This document shows positions 44,933-54,136 of a DNA stretch of 64,000 nt, one piece after another. The notes under the pieces are model-generated. The model was not told the origin of the DNA, did no database searches, and worked only from the letters and a program-made list of their open reading frames with translations. The translations under genes were made by a program, and so were the position numbers. The DNA is taken from positions 1 through 64,000 of the forward strand of contig JABWCL010000004.1 of assembly GCA_013360295.1 (NCBI GenBank), in the 5' to 3' direction. The first letter of the stretch is position 1. Every line of letters starts with the position of its first letter. Source of the stretch: Ignavibacteriaceae bacterium (GTDB lineage Bacteria; Bacteroidota; Ignavibacteria; Ignavibacteriales; Ignavibacteriaceae).

Positions 44933-45295
44933 CTATCCTCTGGCAGCCATTGCTTCTTCGATCTTGTTTTTCAGTTCGAAGCACATATCAGGTTTACCCT
45001 GGTAAGCCTGAACTGCTCCTGAGGCTGTATCAAAGTGAAGATAATACTTCTTGAAACCGAGAAAATACCCAAGTGCGCCAAGTGCTGCGCCAATTACCGC
45101 CATCATTATTCCTTCACTCAGTCCGATTAAGAGAAGAATAACGCCGATAACTACCAGCCCGATCGCCAGTTTGTTAAGTTCTCCGATTACTCTTATTCCG
45201 GTAATATTCGCGAGCGAATATGTGTTTGCGCCAAGAACTACGCGCGTAGTGGTGATCTTTATATCACCTGATTCATGAATGACTTGTTCTGCCAT
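44933..45295 (-). CDS. DUF6232-like membrane protein
   Basis: 120 residues. A short PH-like N-terminal part (VIHESGDIKITTTRVVLGANTYSLANITGIRV) precedes two hydrophobic helices (LAIGLVVIGVILLLIGL and a Gly-rich second helix near 68-85), then a beta strand with YYLHFDTASGAVQAYQ. This matches the small membrane proteins annotated as DUF6232. Function unknown. It lies 123 bases downstream of the PP2C gene, in the same direction as the signalling operon, but the gap could hold its own promoter. Confidence 0.75.
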   Translation of the reverse strand: MAEQVIHESGDIKITTTRVVLGANTYSLANITGIRVIGELNKLAIGLVVIGVILLLIGLSEGIMMAVIGAALGALGYFLGFKKYYLHFDTASGAVQAYQGKPDMCFELKNKIEEAMAARG

Positions 45296-45418: not shown

Positions 45419-46189
45419 CTATGCCAATTCTTTAACGCCAACTGAAAGCTTCAAAAGTATAATCGAAATGTTATCCGCTCCGCCGGCATCAAGCGCCGCT
45501 TGAAGGAGAGGCTCACATACTTCCGATTCGGTCAGTGTTTTTTCAATCGCGTCGTCTTCAACCATATCGTGCAGTCCGTCACTGCACAGAACGATCGTAT
45601 CACCATCCGTAAAACTTGGCGTTACATCAATAAAATCTATAAATACGGATTTACCGCCGCCGACGGAATTGATGAGTGCCTTCGAGCTTTTTCTCTCTAT
45701 GCCCGTGATGGCGGATAATGAATGATCATTCGAGAACTGCCTGAGTATTCCGTTTCTGAACCGGTAACACCTGCTGTCCCCTGCATTAATCAGAAAAATC
45801 CTGTTTTCGTAAAACACTACACTAACAAGCGTTGAGCCCATGCTCCTCAATCCGGGATCTGACTCACTCTTTTCCATTAGTTTAGTATGCAGTAAAGAAA
45901 TTTCATTCTCAAAATACTCTTTAACTTCATTATTGGTTTTCCCTGTCCCGATTCTTTTCACGCTTTCCCTCATTCCTTCGGCAACATACTGTGAAGCCAG
46001 GTCACCCGACTTATGCCCTCCCATTCCGTCCGCAACCGCGAAAACAAAGGGAGAGGATTTCGAAACCGCAATCTCCGATTCATATTCCCCGTTACGGATA
46101 AACTGGTCCCCGATCAGGATCATATCCTCGTTATTTTTTCTTTTTAATCCTGTGTGACTAACTGAACGGATTCTGACTGTCAGGCTCAT
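45419..46189 (-). CDS. PP2C-family serine/threonine phosphatase
   Basis: 256 residues. The metal- and phosphate-binding motifs of PPM phosphatases are all present: RKNNEDM (residues 17-23), VADGMGGHKSGD (52-63), GSTLV, INAGDSRCYRF, CSDGLHDMVEDD and GGADNISIILLK at the end. It dephosphorylates Ser/Thr residues and is expected to oppose the kinase encoded at 50152 in the same operon. It is cytoplasmic. The FHA protein gene ends four bases upstream, so the two are co-translated. Confidence 0.92.
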   Translation of the reverse strand: MSLTVRIRSVSHTGLKRKNNEDMILIGDQFIRNGEYESEIAVSKSSPFVFAVADGMGGHKSGDLASQYVAEGMRESVKRIGTGKTNNEVKEYFENEISLLHTKLMEKSESDPGLRSMGSTLVSVVFYENRIFLINAGDSRCYRFRNGILRQFSNDHSLSAITGIERKSSKALINSVGGGKSVFIDFIDVTPSFTDGDTIVLCSDGLHDMVEDDAIEKTLTESEVCEPLLQAALDAGGADNISIILLKLSVGVKELA

Positions 46190-46193
46190 ACTT

Positions 46194-46796
46194 TTATAAC
46201 CTTACTGTTTTTTCATCATCTCCAGCCGGTTCATCAAATTCAATCAGGAACTCGATATTCGCGAAGATGATATTAGTGCCGTTGAATAATTTCTGTGCGG
46301 CGTTTGGAGCTAACTGCGCGCCCGCGTATTTCGTTCCGTTTGAAGAGCCCAGGTCTGAAACATACCAGCCGGTCGGGTCGTTATATATCCTGGCGTGCTT
46401 TCCTGAGATCTGGCTGAACTTATTAAAAATTGGTTTATGCGGCCCGTCTTTCCTTCCGATGATATCACCGCTGCTGACTTCGATACTCAGGCCAAGAGAT
46501 TCATTTGAGAGCCTTAGTTTTTGCGTCGCACTTACCACAGAAGGCGATGGCATTGCAGGAGTCGCCGGCTGCGCGGGTGCAGGTACTGGTTTTGGAGTAA
46601 CCGTTTTAGGAGGTTCAGCAGCAGCCTGCGTGCCGCCTGCTAATTCCCGTACAGTTATCAGCTTGCTGCCATCGTTTGTGCATCTCTTTCCCTTCGCAAG
46701 GTTTTTGCAAACCGGGCAGATCAGCAATTCTTCACCGCACTGATCACAGAAATTCGAATCTTTTTCTATATCGTTTTTACAAAATGGGCATATCAT
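46194..46796 (-). CDS. Zinc-ribbon FHA-domain protein with C-terminal TVR motif
   Basis: 200 residues. The N-terminus is a double zinc-ribbon-like segment (Cys 3, 6, 17, 20, 27, 30, 39). A Pro/Ala-rich linker covers 55-90. The FHA domain covers ~95-190, with GRKDG (114-118), SGKHARI (131-137, phosphothreonine-binding) and SDLGSSNGT (147-155). The last eight residues, DDEKTVRL, match the acidic D-x-T-V-R motifs at the N-terminus of the neighbouring kinase. Thr197 could be phosphorylated and bind the FHA domain in cis or trans. It overlaps the AAA+ gene by four bases. Confidence 0.88.
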   Translation of the reverse strand: MICPFCKNDIEKDSNFCDQCGEELLICPVCKNLAKGKRCTNDGSKLITVRELAGGTQAAAEPPKTVTPKPVPAPAQPATPAMPSPSVVSATQKLRLSNESLGLSIEVSSGDIIGRKDGPHKPIFNKFSQISGKHARIYNDPTGWYVSDLGSSNGTKYAGAQLAPNAAQKLFNGTNIIFANIEFLIEFDEPAGDDEKTVRL

Positions 46797-49700
46797 AAAC
46801 TCAGATCCTCTGCGATAATGTTATTCATCTCTGATGTATCATTTCCAGCCGCGTCAAGCATCTTCGCGACTCTCCTGCTTTGATTCTGCAGAGTCTTTTC
46901 AAACAGATTACGGACTGTTCTCGCGTTACCAAAGTTCTGGTCACGGTTATTATACAGATCACTGAAATGTCTTAAGAGCAGTTCCTCCGCCTTCCCGTCA
47001 ATACTCATTTCTTTGTCCCTGATCATCTTCCCGAAAATCATAAGCATTTCCTCAGGTAAATAATCCGCGAAGTTTATCCGCTTGGTAAAGCGGGAAGAGA
47101 GTCCCGGATTCATATTCAAAAATGTCTCCATCTGCTCAGTATAACCAGCGGCGATTATTATAAATTTACCCCGGTCATCCTCCATCCGTTTAAGTATAGT
47201 ATCTATGGCTTCCTTGCCAAAATCACTTCCTGACTCACTGTAAAGCGTGTACGCTTCATCAATGAAGAGGAGGCCTCCCATCGCTGAGTCGACCACCTTA
47301 TTTGTCAATTTCGAAGTCTGCCCCACATAAGACGCAACCAACTGGGATCTTTCCACCTCAACAACATGCCCTTTCGGAAGCAGCCCGAGCGCTCTGAATA
47401 CATTTCCCAAAATCCTCGCGACTGTCGTCTTGCCTGTTCCGGGATTACCTGTAAATACAAAATGAAGATTTAACTGAGTGGTTTTACCTCCCATCTCAGC
47501 GCGCCTCGCTTCGACTTTCAGGAAGTCAATTAATTGTGAAATCTCTTCTTTTATTTCTTTTAACCCGATCAGCGAATTAAGCTCTCTGAATATCTCCTCG
47601 ATAGTATAAACTTTTTTCTCATCCTGGGGAATGTCTTCTTTTGTCAGAATGTTGAACTGATCGGGAGCAACTTCGCCCAGTTTCATCATTCCGGCTAATC
47701 GCGTGCTTTGTTTCTGCAGGCTCTTCTCGAATATATTCCTGACCTCCCTGGCGTTTCCGAAATTCTTGTCACGCCCTTTATGAACTGCGTCAAAAAATTT
47801 GGGCAGGAATTCATCCATATCAGCGGCGAGTGTAAGTTTCTTCTTCCCGGCCATCATCTTAAATATGCTTACCATATCCGGCGCGGAATAATCACCAAAA
47901 TGAATTGTCCTTGTAAAGCGCGACTGGAGTCCCGGATTCGTACTGAGGAATTCTCTCATTTCATTTGTGTAGCCCGCAATTATCGCAATAAACTTTCCTC
48001 TGTCGTCTTCCACCCGCTTCAGCAAAGTATCAATAGCCTCTTTGCCGAAACTGTTGTCACCTCCTGATGACAACGTATAAGCTTCATCAATAAACAAAAC
48101 GCCCCCCATCGCGCTGTCAATAAGGTTATTTGTTTTGATCGCGGTCTGCCCGATATAACCGGCAACAAGTTTGGAACTGTCAACCTCTATCAGTTGTCCC
48201 CGTGAGAGGAGTCCAAGTGACTTAAATACATTCGCGAGTATCCTGGCGACGGTAGTTTTTCCGGTGCCGGGATTACCTGTAAATACAAAATGCAGGCTAA
48301 GTGATGTCTCCTTACCTCCGGCCTCCGCTCTTTTCTTTTCAACTTCAAGATAACTAATCAGTTCATTCACTTCTTGCTTAATGTTCTTCATTCCGATCAG
48401 TTCATTAAGCTCTTTGAGCACGTCTTCTATCTTAACTTCCTGTTTTTCCTTAACAGGCAAGTCATCCGCAATGATCGTGGTCAGCGCCTCATCCGTCTGC
48501 TCATCAACAGGCAAAGCCGTAATCCTTGAAGAAAATCGTGAAATTGTCTGTTCAAAGAGGCTTCGCATCTCCCTTCCGTTCGCGAAGTTTTTGTCCCTTG
48601 AATCGTAGATCGCTTTAATGGCTTTCTTAGCGGTTTCCTCCGCTTCGGCGTGAATGTTGTACTTCCTTGTTCTGAAAAAGTTTTTAAAGATCAGATACAG
48701 TTCATCAGGAGTGTAATCCTGAATGTTCAGATACCTGTTAAACCTGCTCTTCATACCGGGATTTACATTAATAAATCTTTCCATCTCATTCTGGTATCCC
48801 GCCGCAATGACTACGAACTTACCCCTGTCATCCTCCATACGTTTCATAAGTGTTTCAACTGCTTCTTTACCGTATTGGTCCGTGGAACCGCCGTCTGATG
48901 CCGGTGCAAGCGTGTATGCTTCATCAATGAAAAGAATACCGCCGACAGCCTTATCACAAGCGGCCGAAACCAGTTTAGGAGTTTCTCCGAGATACTGCCC
49001 CACAAGTGCGCTCCGGTCAACCTCAACAACGTGGCCGCTGTCCAGGTAATTTATCGCTGCAAAAATTTCTCCCAGTTTTCGTGCGATTGAAGTTTTTCCT
49101 GTTCCCGGATTCCCGGTAAGTACAAGATGAACACCTATCTTCTCGTCGCTTCCCAATCCCCGCAGTACCCGCTGCTGAGCGGCCTGAACCTGCTGTGCAA
49201 TTTCTTTGACGGCATTCTTAACATTATCCATTCCCACAAAATCATCAAGTTCCGCGAGGATAGTCTCAAGGGATTTTTCCTCCGGTATCTTCCCTTCAAT
49301 ATCATCCGGATGCACGATGTTATCATCTGCTCCTCCGCCAGTTATCCTTGAAAGATAACATTTGAAAATATTCTCCGCGGCAGTAATAGCGTAATGCGCG
49401 TTACCGAATGAATCCGTTTTAGTTTTGATCGCGAACTTGAAAAGCCTGTGAAGTTTATCAGACGATTCATCATTCAGCGACAGATTATATGACTTAAGTT
49501 TTTTCTGGCAGATCTGGAATAATTCGGGTGAGCTGTAATCCGGAAGCCTGAAATAATACTGAAACCTGTTTTTAATTGAAGGATTCTTCGCAAGGAAATC
49601 TTCAAATCCCTGCGGAAGCCCGGCAAGAATAACGATAGGATCGAAGCCAAATTTATCCATCTCCGAAAACAATTTATCAAGCAGGTTTATTTCCGAGGAG

Positions 49701-50134
49701 AATCCGCCCGGTACAAGTTTCTGCACATTATCAATAAAAAGAATACCGCCTTTGGCCTTCTGAAGATTAGTCTGAAAATCCTTTGTGAATTCCTGGTAAT
49801 CAACCGCATCTACATACTGCGCCGTGGCTTTGGATATTATCCCGTTCTGGAAGAACAGTTGCTGAAGTATGTTCGCCAGGGTGCTCTTCCCGGTTCCTGA
49901 GGTTCCGGTAATGACCGTGTGCATATTTATCTTGATATCGGCGCCGGCTGCCGCCTGTCTCGACTTAATTGTCTTGCTGATCGTAACAAGCTTTACAATC
50001 TCATCCTTGATCGCGTTCAAACCGATCAGGTCAGTGAAAACATCCCCGATCGAGCTCGTGATCTTTTCTCCGCAGCTTTTACAAAACTTCGCGATATCTC
50101 TGTTGCTAGTACCGCACTTGGAACATTTTGCCAT
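46793..50134 (-). CDS. Zinc-ribbon protein with four tandem CbbX/SpoVK-type AAA+ domains
   Basis: 1113 residues. A zinc ribbon (Cys 4, 7, 18, 21) is followed by four AAA+ modules with Walker A at 77-85 (GTSGTGKST), 341-349, 620-628 and 896-904 (each GNPGTGKT). Walker B is FIDE in modules 2-4 (402-405, 681-684, 957-960) but FIDN in module 1 (133-136), which lacks the catalytic Glu and is probably inactive in hydrolysis. Modules 2-4 share the EAYTL, EDDRGKF and NPG..SRF features of the CbbX/SpoVK/EccA clade. Modules 3 and 4 are closest to each other. Likely a remodelling ATPase; its substrate is unknown. It overlaps the FHA gene and lies 17 bases after the kinase. Confidence 0.9.
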   Translation of the reverse strand: MAKCSKCGTSNRDIAKFCKSCGEKITSSIGDVFTDLIGLNAIKDEIVKLVTISKTIKSRQAAAGADIKINMHTVITGTSGTGKSTLANILQQLFFQNGIISKATAQYVDAVDYQEFTKDFQTNLQKAKGGILFIDNVQKLVPGGFSSEINLLDKLFSEMDKFGFDPIVILAGLPQGFEDFLAKNPSIKNRFQYYFRLPDYSSPELFQICQKKLKSYNLSLNDESSDKLHRLFKFAIKTKTDSFGNAHYAITAAENIFKCYLSRITGGGADDNIVHPDDIEGKIPEEKSLETILAELDDFVGMDNVKNAVKEIAQQVQAAQQRVLRGLGSDEKIGVHLVLTGNPGTGKTSIARKLGEIFAAINYLDSGHVVEVDRSALVGQYLGETPKLVSAACDKAVGGILFIDEAYTLAPASDGGSTDQYGKEAVETLMKRMEDDRGKFVVIAAGYQNEMERFINVNPGMKSRFNRYLNIQDYTPDELYLIFKNFFRTRKYNIHAEAEETAKKAIKAIYDSRDKNFANGREMRSLFEQTISRFSSRITALPVDEQTDEALTTIIADDLPVKEKQEVKIEDVLKELNELIGMKNIKQEVNELISYLEVEKKRAEAGGKETSLSLHFVFTGNPGTGKTTVARILANVFKSLGLLSRGQLIEVDSSKLVAGYIGQTAIKTNNLIDSAMGGVLFIDEAYTLSSGGDNSFGKEAIDTLLKRVEDDRGKFIAIIAGYTNEMREFLSTNPGLQSRFTRTIHFGDYSAPDMVSIFKMMAGKKKLTLAADMDEFLPKFFDAVHKGRDKNFGNAREVRNIFEKSLQKQSTRLAGMMKLGEVAPDQFNILTKEDIPQDEKKVYTIEEIFRELNSLIGLKEIKEEISQLIDFLKVEARRAEMGGKTTQLNLHFVFTGNPGTGKTTVARILGNVFRALGLLPKGHVVEVERSQLVASYVGQTSKLTNKVVDSAMGGLLFIDEAYTLYSESGSDFGKEAIDTILKRMEDDRGKFIIIAAGYTEQMETFLNMNPGLSSRFTKRINFADYLPEEMLMIFGKMIRDKEMSIDGKAEELLLRHFSDLYNNRDQNFGNARTVRNLFEKTLQNQSRRVAKMLDAAGNDTSEMNNIIAEDLSL

Positions 50135-50151
50135 ATTTCTGAAATTCCGTC

Positions 50152-53100
50152 CTATCTGAAGCTGTTGATGAGTTTCTCTAACATATCAGAGATGGTGTAA
50201 TACTTCGGATTATAGTAAAGCATAAGCTCAAGCAGAGCAAGCAGAGTGATAGAGCCAAGAGCGCTGTACTTAAAGATCTCATACTTCGCTTTTCTTCTAA
50301 GCTTCACGTAATCACTGAATAATTCCTCACGCGAACTTGTGAATGCCTCATCTTTGCTGAAAGCGTGTTTTAATGGTTCCCATACCATTGTAGACTTATC
50401 ATTCTCATCAAACAGTTTGGCCTTTACTTCATTGCTGGTATAAGTGCTGAGATAAATTTTATATATAAAAAATCCGAGCAGAGCCACTGTAAGTGATATG
50501 AATGCTATCGGGTAAGAGAATGTAAAATAGATAACATAATAGAGAAGCACCGCGGCGATTAATCCAATTATCGGTCCCCCAATACAGCCTGTACTCAGCT
50601 CTATCTTCCCCTCCTGTTTCATCCCGATAAACGTAAATATGACGAGAATGCCCATAATTACCAGGTAATAAAGCGCCGATACTTCCCAGAACTTTCCGGG
50701 GAGCGGATTGGTATCCAGTTTCATATAGAAGAAAACTACAAGGGCGGCGATAATCGCCGGAATGACCATCGCTCCTATCCATCCGTAGATGAACCTGCCG
50801 TCAATATTTTTGTTTTTATCCATCAGCTTTTTGACTGAGCCCGATGCATTCATAAATCTCTGCGAGATTGTGTTATCAGGATTGATCTCAGTCAGTTTGT
50901 CCAGGTATTCTTTCAACTGAACTTCATAACCCTTTTTCGTAAAAGGATCTTCGTGGAAGAACACGCTTATCCAGGCATTTAGCTTGGATCCTCCGTCAGA
51001 AAGGCTGTCAAGAATTTTTTTCCGGATTACTGGATCGGCTTTTACAAGGTCATCCGGTGTTGCGAACTTCTTGCCATCAACCTCATATTCAGGCGTGACT
51101 CCAAGAAGTTTTATGATCTTCATAACCGCGATATTGACGTTGTAGTTACCGATCTTCTTTTTATGATCCTTTTTATTGAAGCAGTATTTTGCGTAGTCTA
51201 TAACGTCATCCCACCTGCGCGAGAGGAAAAACATATACATTATTTCTTTTTGGTTTTTCAGTATTGTTTTATGCTTCTCAAAATGATTCCATATTTCCCA
51301 TCCGAAGTCCTCTTTTTCCATACACTCCGTTTCTCCGTCCTCACCGTAATATGGAAGCTGATCATCCAGCACATAACTGCCAAGCATAATTGCGCTGTAA
51401 ATATCATCCTCAGGGAAATCGGTCTTAATAAAATCAATCCACTCAGCCAGGTTCTGCTCTTCTCTGTAAGTTAGCCACGCGGAAATGCTTCCGTTCGTAA
51501 GGTATACATAGCCCTCTTCATTATAAGTCAGCAAAAGCTGCCTGAATTCATAAGGTTCGTTTACGAGAGTGAATGTGTTTCCTTCTTCGTCCTCCGGATG
51601 GATGAATTTGAATGGTTTATCCGGATTGAGAATATATATGACGTGAGTCAGCGCGAGCTCGGGATCGTAATCCTTAAATAGCTTACGCAGCTTATCAGCC
51701 TGTTTTTTATTTCCTTTACTCGTCAGATACAGATAGAAATCATCATTTTTATTCTGAAGTTTCTCCGAGTATTTTTCAAAATCATCTTCAAATACATCCG
51801 CGAATTCTTCAAGCGTGCGGCATTTTCGGCCGTCCACCGCTTCGTATGGAAGGTCAGGATCAATGACATAGGCGGTAAGTTTAAGACCGGCGTTCTCATC
51901 CTTCGGATACAGCTTCTCAACTATCTCATCTATTTCAAGCGCGAACTTCTGGTTCTTCGATTCTTCAAACCACTTCGATACTTTACCGCGATACAGGTAC
52001 CTGATACCAAGCTGCGGATCCTTAACTAAAAGCGCGGCTAATTCTTTTGGATTGCCTGCAATCAGATTCCGGTCGGTATCAAAGTAAAAAGGTTTATAGT
52101 CCATTGTTACTTTTTCTTCCCACACCTCAATATCTTCCCCTTTAAGCCACCGCTTCACTTCACTGGCACCCCACCTTTTCTCTTTATTAACTACAGTTAA
52201 TCCGCGCACGAGGGTGTGTAATTCTTTTGGAAGCGATTCCGGGATCGGGATCTTACCGTCATTCTTGAGCCTCATAAGCGATAGCTCGTCAAGTCCCTTG
52301 AACGGATTCTCTCCGAGCCAGATGAACATAAGCGTTACGCCGAGAGAATAATAATCAATCTCCCTTGAAATTAAAGTCTGTCCGCCGATACTCTGATACA
52401 ACTCCGGAGCCGCATAGATGGCGGTTCTTGCCTGGCCTGTCTGCTGCATCGAAAGATCTTCATCGAGCAATGATGAAATGCCGAAATCACCGACAAGTAT
52501 ATCGGAACCATTAGCGTTTTTATAAAAAATATTTCCGGGTTTTATGTCTCTGTGTATAATCCCGTTTTTATGGCAGAACTCTAACGCGTTGGTAGTTTCC
52601 GCAATGATCTCTTTAAGTTTTGAGATGTCTCTGATAGGAAGGTATTTATCAACCGTGCCCCCGGCTGCAAACTCTAACAGCTCAAAAAACCTGCCGGCAT
52701 AGTAACCAAAGTCCAGTACCTTAATGATATCTTCGTGTTTTATTTCTCTCAGTTTTTTCAGCAGGGCTTCTTTTGGCTTAATGTTTGGGTAGTAAAGTTT
52801 CAGGACAGATTGAGCGCCGGACTCACTTTTAATAAGATATATCTGCGCTTCACCGGTACTCTCTGAAATAGTTTTTTCGACTTTATACTGTTTCTCATTC
52901 AGAACGAATGCATCCTGTTTGATCGCGAGCGGGGCGTTTGTCGGAATAAACTGCTGCGCGGGCTGTGTGGGGATACCGGATTCGGTTACTAATGTTGTTT
53001 TATCATCATCCGGTTCATCTTTTGCTTTTATTATTTCTGAATCGCTGCGGACAGTAGCGTCATCATCATCAATAGCTTTAGGCTGTTTGTTTCGTTTTGA

Positions 53101-53184
53101 GGAAATGATATTTTTGTCTGCTCTGACCGTCCTGTCGTCAGATTCTTCGTCCAATCGGACTGTTTTATCATTGTCATCGCTCAT
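50152..53184 (-). CDS. Membrane Ser/Thr protein kinase with N-terminal TVR motifs and tandem repeats
   Basis: 1010 residues. The acidic N-terminus has three D-x-T-V-R motifs (Thr8, Thr19, Thr44) and DKTT (63-64). The Hanks-type kinase domain covers ~100-350: Lys129, HRDIKPGN (211-218), DFG (233-235), APE (259-261); all catalytic residues are kept, and the Gly loop is weak. Residues ~366-670 hold four repeats of 65-88 residues with the pattern Y-V/I-x-D/N-P-D-x-P near each start and YLYRG or YLTNG later. About five membrane helices follow from ~785 to the C-terminus. It is probably the signal input of the operon, opposed by PP2C. Confidence 0.88.
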   Translation of the reverse strand: MSDDNDKTVRLDEESDDRTVRADKNIISSKRNKQPKAIDDDDATVRSDSEIIKAKDEPDDDKTTLVTESGIPTQPAQQFIPTNAPLAIKQDAFVLNEKQYKVEKTISESTGEAQIYLIKSESGAQSVLKLYYPNIKPKEALLKKLREIKHEDIIKVLDFGYYAGRFFELLEFAAGGTVDKYLPIRDISKLKEIIAETTNALEFCHKNGIIHRDIKPGNIFYKNANGSDILVGDFGISSLLDEDLSMQQTGQARTAIYAAPELYQSIGGQTLISREIDYYSLGVTLMFIWLGENPFKGLDELSLMRLKNDGKIPIPESLPKELHTLVRGLTVVNKEKRWGASEVKRWLKGEDIEVWEEKVTMDYKPFYFDTDRNLIAGNPKELAALLVKDPQLGIRYLYRGKVSKWFEESKNQKFALEIDEIVEKLYPKDENAGLKLTAYVIDPDLPYEAVDGRKCRTLEEFADVFEDDFEKYSEKLQNKNDDFYLYLTSKGNKKQADKLRKLFKDYDPELALTHVIYILNPDKPFKFIHPEDEEGNTFTLVNEPYEFRQLLLTYNEEGYVYLTNGSISAWLTYREEQNLAEWIDFIKTDFPEDDIYSAIMLGSYVLDDQLPYYGEDGETECMEKEDFGWEIWNHFEKHKTILKNQKEIMYMFFLSRRWDDVIDYAKYCFNKKDHKKKIGNYNVNIAVMKIIKLLGVTPEYEVDGKKFATPDDLVKADPVIRKKILDSLSDGGSKLNAWISVFFHEDPFTKKGYEVQLKEYLDKLTEINPDNTISQRFMNASGSVKKLMDKNKNIDGRFIYGWIGAMVIPAIIAALVVFFYMKLDTNPLPGKFWEVSALYYLVIMGILVIFTFIGMKQEGKIELSTGCIGGPIIGLIAAVLLYYVIYFTFSYPIAFISLTVALLGFFIYKIYLSTYTSNEVKAKLFDENDKSTMVWEPLKHAFSKDEAFTSSREELFSDYVKLRRKAKYEIFKYSALGSITLLALLELMLYYNPKYYTISDMLEKLINSFR

Positions 53185-53206
53185 TATCGGGTCCTTTTAT
53201 TTAATT

Positions 53207-54136
53207 CTAAAAACTTCCATACTCCCAGTGAATATGCCCCTCATATACTATCCACTTGCCGCCAAGGTTTGGCTTGGCGCAATCGTGAGGAGCGGGATGG
53301 ATTGCGTGTACGTAGTTACATTCCCAGACAAGGTTTCCGGGAGGTTTGATAGCGTTATAAAAACATCTGGCTTTTTGCGGCGTATCAAAAGTTTTGTCCT
53401 GAGCATTTTCAAGTTTCTCAAGCATCTGTTTCTTCCTGGCGTCTAGTTCAGCCTTTTTTCGCGCGACTGCATCCAGGCGCTTTTCATCGCCTGCCCCGAA
53501 TAAAGATTGTGGCTTTGACTGAGCTTTTTCCTTCGGCTGCTCATTGCCGGACTTTTTGTAGAATCCTTCAAGGTTCCTTAACCTGTTCAGCTTTGCCTCT
53601 TTTTCAGCGTCACTCTTTTGCTGCTCGGCGGCCTTCTGCAGTTCCTCTTCAATCTCCTTTTCGAGCGCCCTGATTTCCTCCAATCCTTTAATTGCCTCCC
53701 CGATCTGAGGCTCATTCTTCAACTGGTCAAGCGCCTCCGCTGCAGCTTCGGTAAGCGCCGTATTACACTTCGTGCAAAAATCAAAATGATTATTCTCGCC
53801 GCAATTCGGGCACTTAATTCCTTTCGCGGGGTTACCACACTCTGGGCAGAACTGGTCGTCATCCGATAATTCACCGTAGCAAAATCTGCATTTGCCGGGC
53901 AAGAGCCACATTCCGCATTTCTCACAGATATCAGCATCCGGATAAACTTCCGCTTTGCAATGAGGGCATTGAAGCGCGTCAAGTGAAGCCCCGCACTCTT
54001 CACAGAATTTCGCCGAAGCAGGGTTGATATGTTTACATAACGGACATAATTTCCCCTGCTGGCTTTCGGGTTGCTCAGCCTGTTTTGACTTTGCCTTCTG
54101 CTGTTCCTGTTCCTGTCTTCTAATATTTTCCTGCAT
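53207..54136 (-). CDS. Protein with four zinc ribbons, coiled coil and Cys/His C-terminal domain
   Basis: 309 residues. Four successive zinc ribbons use Cys 31/34/45/48, 57/60/71/74, 83/86/97/100 and 109/112/121/124. Residues ~130-250 are strongly charged and probably coiled coil. The last ~55 residues form a separate Cys/His-rich, aromatic domain (CFYNAIKPPGN, WECNYVHAIHPAPHDC, HIHWEYGSF) that was not recognised. It is the first gene of the signalling operon, 22 bases before the kinase. Zinc ribbons are also found in the FHA and AAA+ partners, suggesting an assembly hub. Confidence 0.8.
   Translation of the reverse strand: MQENIRRQEQEQQKAKSKQAEQPESQQGKLCPLCKHINPASAKFCEECGASLDALQCPHCKAEVYPDADICEKCGMWLLPGKCRFCYGELSDDDQFCPECGNPAKGIKCPNCGENNHFDFCTKCNTALTEAAAEALDQLKNEPQIGEAIKGLEEIRALEKEIEEELQKAAEQQKSDAEKEAKLNRLRNLEGFYKKSGNEQPKEKAQSKPQSLFGAGDEKRLDAVARKKAELDARKKQMLEKLENAQDKTFDTPQKARCFYNAIKPPGNLVWECNYVHAIHPAPHDCAKPNLGGKWIVYEGHIHWEYGSF

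Follow-up and report, generated by a model that had tools for sequence, protein, structure and literature searches.

A five-gene operon conserved in Ignavibacteria and Spirochaetota joins a membrane kinase, a PP2C phosphatase, an FHA reader, a tandem AAA+ protein and a zinc-ribbon protein in a candidate phospho-switch

Among the described bacterial kinases, PknG is depicted in passages of PMC8546545 as a disordered N-terminus holding all autophosphorylation sites, followed by the kinase and a helical TPR domain; its autophosphorylated flexible N-terminus recruits the FHA substrate OdhI/GarA, and the kinase then phosphorylates the ETTS motif of this substrate. Members of the SpoVK/CbbX/EccA clade of AAA+ ATPases are dedicated chaperones, and a GY signature in sensor-1 marks the clade (parts of PMC10659427). 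TerY triads and GAP1-N2 GTPase systems have a kinase gene that neighbours genes of PP2C and zinc-ribbon proteins (a section of PMC7159879), and in KKP, a kinase-phosphatase module able to defend, the FHA domain is found in PfkB (a section of PMC11341870). In this paper we describe a five-gene operon situated in a 64,000-nucleotide stretch of an Ignavibacteriaceae bacterium (assembly GCA_013360295.1, contig JABWCL010000004.1, positions 1 to 64,000), hereafter called the window. Its products are a four-zinc-ribbon protein (ZR), a membrane Ser/Thr kinase (KIN), a multi-module AAA+ protein (AAA), a ribbon-bearing FHA protein (FHA) and a PP2C phosphatase. These five genes are a real conserved system, present in at least two phyla and matching no named system by the tests that were run.

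The operon occupies window positions 45419-54136 of a 151-kb contig (genome 4.46 Mb), with all genes on the minus strand and transcribed in the order ZR, KIN, AAA, FHA, PP2C. A previous reading of the window, made from its sequence only, had described a tightly packed operon; the open reading frames (ORFs), their order and the successive spacings of 22, 17, -4 and 4 bases were confirmed, and the listed domains (kinase, PP2C, FHA, four-module AAA+ and four-ribbon protein) were borne out by Pfam. The zinc ribbons which it had placed in three of the five products were found in ZR, FHA and AAA, that of AAA being read from its residues. Coordinates of all features are collected in Table 1.

The complete set was assembled in 13 genomes: eight Ignavibacteria (the window genome G000; Ignavibacteriaceae ACE_BAC35, locus L001; G355, L002; G070, L003; G066; G216, L047; G116, L048; G277, L072) and five Spirochaetota (G660, G621, G560, G672 and G678, loci L081-L085), with rearranged gene order. 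The five genes of G066 are distributed between the ends of two contigs (L004 and L074), so that their linkage is presumed. The order in Ignavibacteria is ZR-KIN-AAA-FHA-PP2C, and in Spirochaetota it is ZR-AAA-FHA-PP2C-KIN, AAA-FHA-PP2C-ZR-KIN or, in three of the five, KIN-ZR-AAA-FHA-PP2C; the block AAA-FHA-PP2C is contiguous in 12 of the 13 genomes, G277 having a 207-amino-acid (aa) gene between AAA and FHA. An alignment of the kinase region located after the catalytic domain (A5) matched 7 of 294 genomes of the class Ignavibacteria. When an alignment of the zinc-ribbon AAA module (A4) was run on 294 genomes drawn likewise, full-length matches of at least 271 bits were obtained in the same seven, and others reached at most 154 bits among the matches listed; six of the seven genomes contributed rows to A4 or A5, and G277 did not. 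In the whole phylum A5 matched 5 of 247 genomes, all in the taxonomic order of the window, and in Spirochaetota 6 of 198, namely the five with the set and G573, which was left out of the operon-genome count (35-residue match, E-value 8e-4). The zinc-ribbon AAA alignment built with the five Spirochaetota (A10) found those five as well as G549, G577 and G572.

The gene-neighbourhood search suggested by the sequence-only reading was carried out, with homologues scattered singly as the outcome unfavourable to a common system. In Ignavibacteria they are not so scattered and co-occur in 7 of 7 genomes; in Spirochaetota the result is divided, as the set accompanies the zinc-ribbon AAA module in five of eight genomes and a short AAA gene stands alone in the other three. 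None of 194 genomes in the phylum of a Pontiellaceae genome matched, and among the matches listed for A10 in 106 Bacillota none reached the ribbon. The distances between genomes, computed protein by protein, agree well among the five (r 0.81-0.93), and for none of the 10 protein pairs did any of 2000 permutations reach the observed value; this shows shared descent, and not by itself co-adaptation. Trees are poorly resolved within the nine-genome group. None of the PMC papers searched was found to describe these five genes as a set; a similar operon may be drawn in a PMC10659427 figure on the operons of this AAA clade, the legend of which includes zinc-binding proteins.

The predicted tag logic connecting kinase and FHA protein is the firmest mechanistic clue. 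A tag of the form Dx[DE]xT[VI]R is common to the kinase N-terminus and the FHA C-terminus in 7 of the 13 genomes, all of them Ignavibacteria of the window's family and a sister family, L001 included. Kinases of these seven carry 2-5 strict N-terminal copies and 3-6 of the looser [DE]xTxR, a count that 0 of 5000 linker shuffles reach in each genome, and their FHA proteins end in the tag plus one more residue (at the FHA C-terminus the strict tag is seen in 7 and a loose T-x-R in 9 of the 13). The tag was not found in the remainder of the tagged kinases, nor in ZR, AAA and PP2C of all 13 genomes. Two more genomes, G660 and G277, have looser forms. Among Spirochaetota, the G660 kinase carries DSTQR four times (0 of 5000 shuffles) and the FHA protein of this genome ends in GTARI, and the kinases of G560, G672 and G678 have other threonine-rich N-termini. 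A genome-wide search, which covered the lysine form of the tag, gave 24 matches in six operon genomes, 22 of them in the operon and 21 of these at tag sites (the remaining one lies in the repeat domain of the G070 kinase), against 2 for the reversed-pattern control; nine genomes without the operon gave 8 matches against 8 in that control. No wider set of lysine-form substrates is therefore visible, and a wide set of other tagged proteins was rejected for this form, the 2 of 24 matches outside the operon and the 8 from control genomes being in unrelated proteins or at background.

The catalytic residues of the kinase, i.e. HRD (D213), K215, N218, DFG (233-235) and K129, are invariant in 13 rows. 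Its structure model (13 rows, mean predicted local distance difference test score, pLDDT, of 80) shows the order disordered start, kinase fold, helical repeats and membrane helices, with residues 1-85 predicted as disordered (pLDDT under 50). A fold search with the whole model returned kinases only. The repeat domain modelled alone (6 rows) reached pLDDT 89.6 and a predicted template modelling score of 0.82, and its units of about 80 residues superpose only loosely. It matches nothing in the libraries searched: no Pfam family, no PDB chain by profile, no match in BFVD, nothing under E 0.001 in PDB by Foldseek (best E 0.83) and a best Z of 5.4 over 69 residues against 731 chains (VIA), although a missing structural match does not prove a new fold. 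This large post-kinase domain is predicted to be cytosolic.

A sliding-window scan gives the window kinase four hydrophobic segments, separated by loops of 13, 13 and 84 residues, of which the longest is basic and, with a weaker fifth segment included, would probably lie in the cytoplasm. With such loops no extracytoplasmic sensor domain is apparent, and the 'envelope-sensed' part of the earlier reading is not supported. The kinase C-terminus varies among genomes, with ankyrin repeats in G660 (L081) and MORN repeats in G672 (L084).

The AAA protein gives PF00004 in 4 stretches (E 1e-63) and AAA_lid_6 in 3. Against NCBIfam models it scores 892 bits for SpoVK (cut-off 423), 751 for EccA (467) and 692 for CbbX (459), and because these scores are inflated, being summed over four modules, we assign it at clade level only; at this level its earlier description as a CbbX/EccA-like ATPase was right. 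Sensor-1 reads AGY, with the clade GY signature, in modules 2-4 of the window protein, and AGL in module 1, which is invariant in a 7-row alignment. The module 1 Walker B has DN, with the catalytic Glu lost, in 8 of 13 genomes, an intact DE in 4 and a degenerate form in G277, and non-first modules carry DEAY or DEVY. The number of modules is 4 in G000 and G216, 5 in L001, G355, G070 and G116, 6 in G066, 3 in G277 (its degenerate first module included) and 4 in each of the five Spirochaetota. Cysteines equivalent to those of the AAA ribbon are invariant in 8 rows including the five Spirochaetota.

In the FHA protein the N-terminal ribbon is under the Pfam cut-off (E 1e-5), yet every one of the 13 rows keeps its cysteines; G114, R115, S131, H134, S151 and N153 of the phosphothreonine pocket are likewise invariant in all 13. 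In ZR residues W271, G292 and G293 are invariant in 13 rows, and C273, H280 and C286 in the 6-row alignment only. Against the Stp1 model of NCBIfam the phosphatase reaches 163 bits, short of the required 230.

We propose that the operon encodes a self-contained, membrane-anchored phospho-switch which gates a dedicated AAA+ remodelling chaperone; taken as a whole mechanism, its chances of being right or wrong appear to us about equal. The sequence itself shows the components and their linkage, the tag common to kinase and FHA protein, the intact kinase and FHA pocket residues and the altered first AAA module; the course of events that follows is inferred. A signal sensed either by the helical repeat domain in the cytosol or by the membrane helices would activate the kinase, which would then autophosphorylate the Thr tags in its disordered N-terminus, where the FHA protein may dock, several copies per kinase. 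Subsequent phosphorylation of the FHA C-terminal tag would make it fold back onto its own FHA domain or bridge to the next FHA copy, as from PknG to GarA/OdhI. In OdhI/GarA the phosphorylated ETTS motif reportedly attaches to the FHA domain of the same molecule, which agrees with the title of a reference cited as Nott 2009. Because the arrangement here matches that of PknG-OdhI/GarA, we expect the FHA protein to dock, its tail to be phosphorylated and closure or chaining to follow. The altered hold of FHA on AAA, probably through their zinc ribbons and with the four-ribbon ZR as scaffold, would turn the AAA modules on or off, and these would act on a specific putative client at the inner membrane, module 1 presumably binding but hardly hydrolysing ATP as a regulatory unit. 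Finally, PP2C would reset the system. The putative FHA-AAA link we infer from the operon, the gene overlap and the shared zinc ribbons. From the earlier proposal of an envelope-sensed phospho-switch driving AAA+ remodelling we thus retain the conserved kinase/PP2C/FHA switch linked to an AAA+ protein, without the envelope sensing.

Several observations speak against this mechanism. Neither the kinase nor the FHA protein of G621, G560, G672 and G678, all Spirochaetota, has the tag, and as it is absent in 4 of 13 genomes, it cannot be essential to every version. In G277 the tags are only degenerate (one loose kinase copy, reached in 66 of 5000 shuffles, and the FHA end KTERV), module 1 is altered in both Walker motifs with no proper Walker A, and the membrane part of the kinase is a separate 418-aa protein. 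G549, G577 and G572 carry a short two-module zinc-ribbon AAA without partner genes in 20 kb, except for a 60-aa ribbon ORF resembling the FHA N-terminus in G572. The zinc-ribbon contacts and the direction of the switch are guesses.

Other functions have to be weighed against the switch that gates a chaperone. The same four functions are united in PpkA, PppA, Fha and ClpV, and Fha binds PpkA-phosphorylated TssL (PMC3953482), which would fit a module that controls a machine for secretion or translocation in the style of Type VI threonine phosphorylation, the machine itself being encoded at another place in the genome or having escaped recognition. Type VII secretion makes use of EccA, and a VirD4/TraG-like coupling ATPase adjoins the operon in three Spirochaetota (PF02534 E 4e-60 in L084; the proteins in L083 and L085 are 60% and 92% identical). 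We nevertheless hold this unlikely: the AAA protein is not ClpV by TIGR03345, the VirD4-like gene was seen at three loci out of 13, a near-identical pair among them, and no secretion gene was recognised beside the window operon, among just 8 window proteins scanned. If, instead, the AAA protein activated or repaired a single cytosolic or membrane biosynthetic enzyme, with the kinase circuit setting the timing, the system would serve the quality control of an envelope enzyme. SpoVK-MurG and CbbX-Rubisco are precedents within the clade (parts of PMC10659427) and the kinase is membrane-anchored, but no enzyme gene recurs beside the operon at the loci read; this idea, a special case of the gated-chaperone explanation with the client named, is in our opinion improbable.

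A phage-defence or other conflict system, based on a kinase/phosphatase balance with the AAA protein as effector and with accessory genes, would fit the sporadic presence (7 of 294 genomes), the variable kinase C-termini (ankyrin in L081, MORN in L084) and a SUKH-type immunity-like gene at 3 of 8 Ignavibacteria loci, one under the Pfam cut-off. The best PADLOC matches of the kinase are MADS mad6 and PD-T4-6, and KKP offers a precedent of defending kinase-phosphatase modules (a section of PMC11341870). However, the PADLOC matches of kinase and AAA are generic (MADS6 84 bits, cut-off 460), the kinase C-terminal region is unmatched on 72,556 plasmid records, the operon is without nuclease or evident toxin, and the recognised window neighbours are housekeeping genes, and we give this explanation little chance.

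Should the phospho-switch gating a AAA+ chaperone be right, the operon would be a compact, genetically linked case of phosphorylation controlling such a chaperone, in which the kinase-reader wiring is legible from sequence because both proteins bear the same tag, and so lends itself to direct tests on peptides and purified proteins. The chain of 3-6 AAA modules with an altered first one is a natural series for how tandem modules cooperate. With less confidence, as a rather doubtful extension, one may think of a general bacterial device, where kinase and reader share a repeated private tag and phosphorylation builds a multivalent membrane patch recruiting and gating a AAA+ protein; the latter would be exchangeable (tandem SpoVK/CbbX-type in Ignavibacteria/Spirochaetota, ClpB-D2-like in Bacillota), and the sensing part would be a new helical repeat fold.

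Four Bacillota loci (L120-L123), the top FHA matches among 199 genomes, were opened. L121, L122 and L123 contain PP2C, a ribbon-FHA protein and a KIN-related kinase (BLAST E 4e-79, 6e-48 and 8e-48). They also have a radical-SAM-like (NrdG-like) protein, for which L121 was the one locus scanned, and a ClpB-D2-like AAA, for which the scan covered L121 and L122. The fourth locus, L120, encodes a kinase, FHA and ribbons, but neither PP2C nor AAA. At its N-terminus the L121 kinase bears seven tandem QQTRR repeats and a zinc ribbon that occurs in the FHA protein of this locus too; the kinases of L122 and L123 have a single TVR/TIR site, which is not significant. A DnaK-like gene lies nearby in L122. 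A scan of viral contigs with the FHA alignment gave two weak loci.

The guanine-cytosine (GC) content of the window operon, 0.42-0.45, is not distinct from that of its flanks (0.40-0.46), and neither the FHA protein nor the C-terminal region of the kinase was matched on plasmids; its reading as a mobile element was rejected. Scans for promoters and terminators gave 24 and 13 sites, near the background of 21.5 and 11.0 in shuffles. The gene of a DUF6232 membrane protein (window 44933-45295, same strand, just downstream) was dismissed as a sixth gene, as it is not seen beside other loci. A DUF123 (GIY-YIG-like) gene directly follows the operon at L001:15498-15947 and L002:15577-16035 (54% identical), and several accessory genes at operon loci had no match in Pfam. 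The solo two-module zinc-ribbon AAA genes (L134:9546-11381, L135:9126-10973 and L136:8744-10579) share a neighbourhood, with an orphan 60-aa ribbon ORF in L136. Besides the operon's AAA protein, the window genome encodes two tandem AAA proteins of SpoVK/CbbX type, about 1,260-1,345 aa long and with no ribbon (L045, G000 C60, and L046, G000 C48); L051, L052, L058, L059 and L062 belong to the same observation. In several related genomes the C60-type gene is followed by a 240-aa gene and a gene of a 560-aa membrane protein (12-14 segments), by appearance like an ABC-exporter pair. Multi-AAA proteins of the SpoVK/CbbX/EccA clade on Streptomyces plasmids are annotated as right-handed beta-helix repeat proteins.

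Table 1. Features of the operon and of related loci; positions refer to the window unless a locus is given
Feature	Position	Strand	Details
ZR	53207..54136	-	309 aa; four N-terminal zinc ribbons and C-terminal W-C-H-C-GG-W domain; Pfam DZR E 1e-19; 8 CxxC
KIN	50152..53184	-	1010-aa membrane Ser/Thr kinase; Pfam Pkinase E 2e-32
AAA	46793..50134	-	1113 aa; N-terminal zinc ribbon and four SpoVK/CbbX/EccA-type AAA+ modules; PF00004 in 4 stretches
FHA	46194..46796	-	200-aa zinc-ribbon/FHA reader; PF00498 E 8e-11
PP2C phosphatase	45419..46189	-	256 aa; PF13672 E 2e-13
Kinase catalytic domain	52135..52911	-	Residues ~92-350; solved kinases align at model residues 78-351, best Z 27.3
Post-kinase helical repeat domain	50818..52098	-	About five units of 80 residues; predicted structure
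C-terminal membrane segments, short loops	50221..50778	-	Hydropathy scan; helices in model
First kinase tag, DNDKTVR (Thr8)	53155..53175	-	Sequence
Second kinase copy, DDRTVR (Thr19)	53122..53142	-	Loose form only; sequence
Third kinase tag, DDDATVR (Thr44)	53047..53067	-	Sequence
FHA C-terminal tag, DDEKTVRL-COOH (Thr197)	46197..46220	-	Sequence
AAA-protein zinc ribbon (C4-C7-C18-C21)	50072..50125	-	C4, C7, C18 and C21 invariant in 7 rows
AAA module 1 Walker B, ILFIDNVQ	49721..49744	-	Asn replaces catalytic Glu; sequence
VirD4/TraG-like coupling ATPase genes	L083:15958-18066, L084:12764-14908, L085:460-2568		Small multi-pass TPR-like membrane protein between gene and operon
SUKH (SMI1/KNR4) family genes	L003:5203-5997, L074:4665-5198, L048:10445-10966		Inside or just after operon; L074 one under Pfam cut-off
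Bacillota sister clusters	L121:5363-13606, L122:9250-16590, L123:8390-15817		Kinase, PP2C, ribbon-FHA

Compared with the known systems, the operon resembles the threonine phosphorylation pathway of Type VI secretion (PpkA, PppA and Fha, alongside ClpV) in that a AAA+ ATPase is encoded together with an FHA protein, a PP2C and a membrane-bound kinase, but its AAA protein is of the SpoVK/CbbX/EccA clade and not ClpV (TssH), scoring 40.5 bits with TIGR03345 against a cut-off of 885, and no Tss structural genes were recognised among the 8 window proteins scanned. It shares the combination of kinase, PP2C and zinc ribbons with TerY triads and GAP1-N2 systems; these systems include a vWA protein, and those of GAP1-N2 type GTPases as well. 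In the Pfam scan neither turned up among the operon products, and the five products and three neighbours gave no vWA match. KKP and MADS likewise join kinases to PP2C or AAA partners, but KKP consists of PP2C and then two kinases with CSD and FHA domains, in place of the one kinase and separate FHA protein here, and the MADS kinase model MAD6 gives 84 bits against a cut-off of 460. The AAA modules are above all three NCBIfam cut-offs of the SpoVK/CbbX/EccA clade and have GY in sensor-1 of modules 2-4, and differ from it in having 3-6 modules per chain, an N-terminal zinc ribbon and an altered first module (Walker B Asn, AGL for AGY). As regards PASTA kinases, the window kinase has no PASTA match in Pfam and 81 bits with NF033483 (PASTA kinase PknB/Stk1), cut-off 450. 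With PknG-GarA/OdhI it shares a flexible kinase N-terminus with several Thr sites, an FHA partner with its own Thr motif and helical repeats after the kinase. The PknG family proper is a soluble kinase with TPR and usually rubredoxin, whereas the window kinase has membrane segments and neither domain in the Pfam scan; its tag is a repeated Dx[DE]xT[VI]R, which in the FHA protein stands at the C-terminus, the FHA protein bears a zinc ribbon, and the genes of PP2C, ZR and the multi-AAA protein sit in the same operon.

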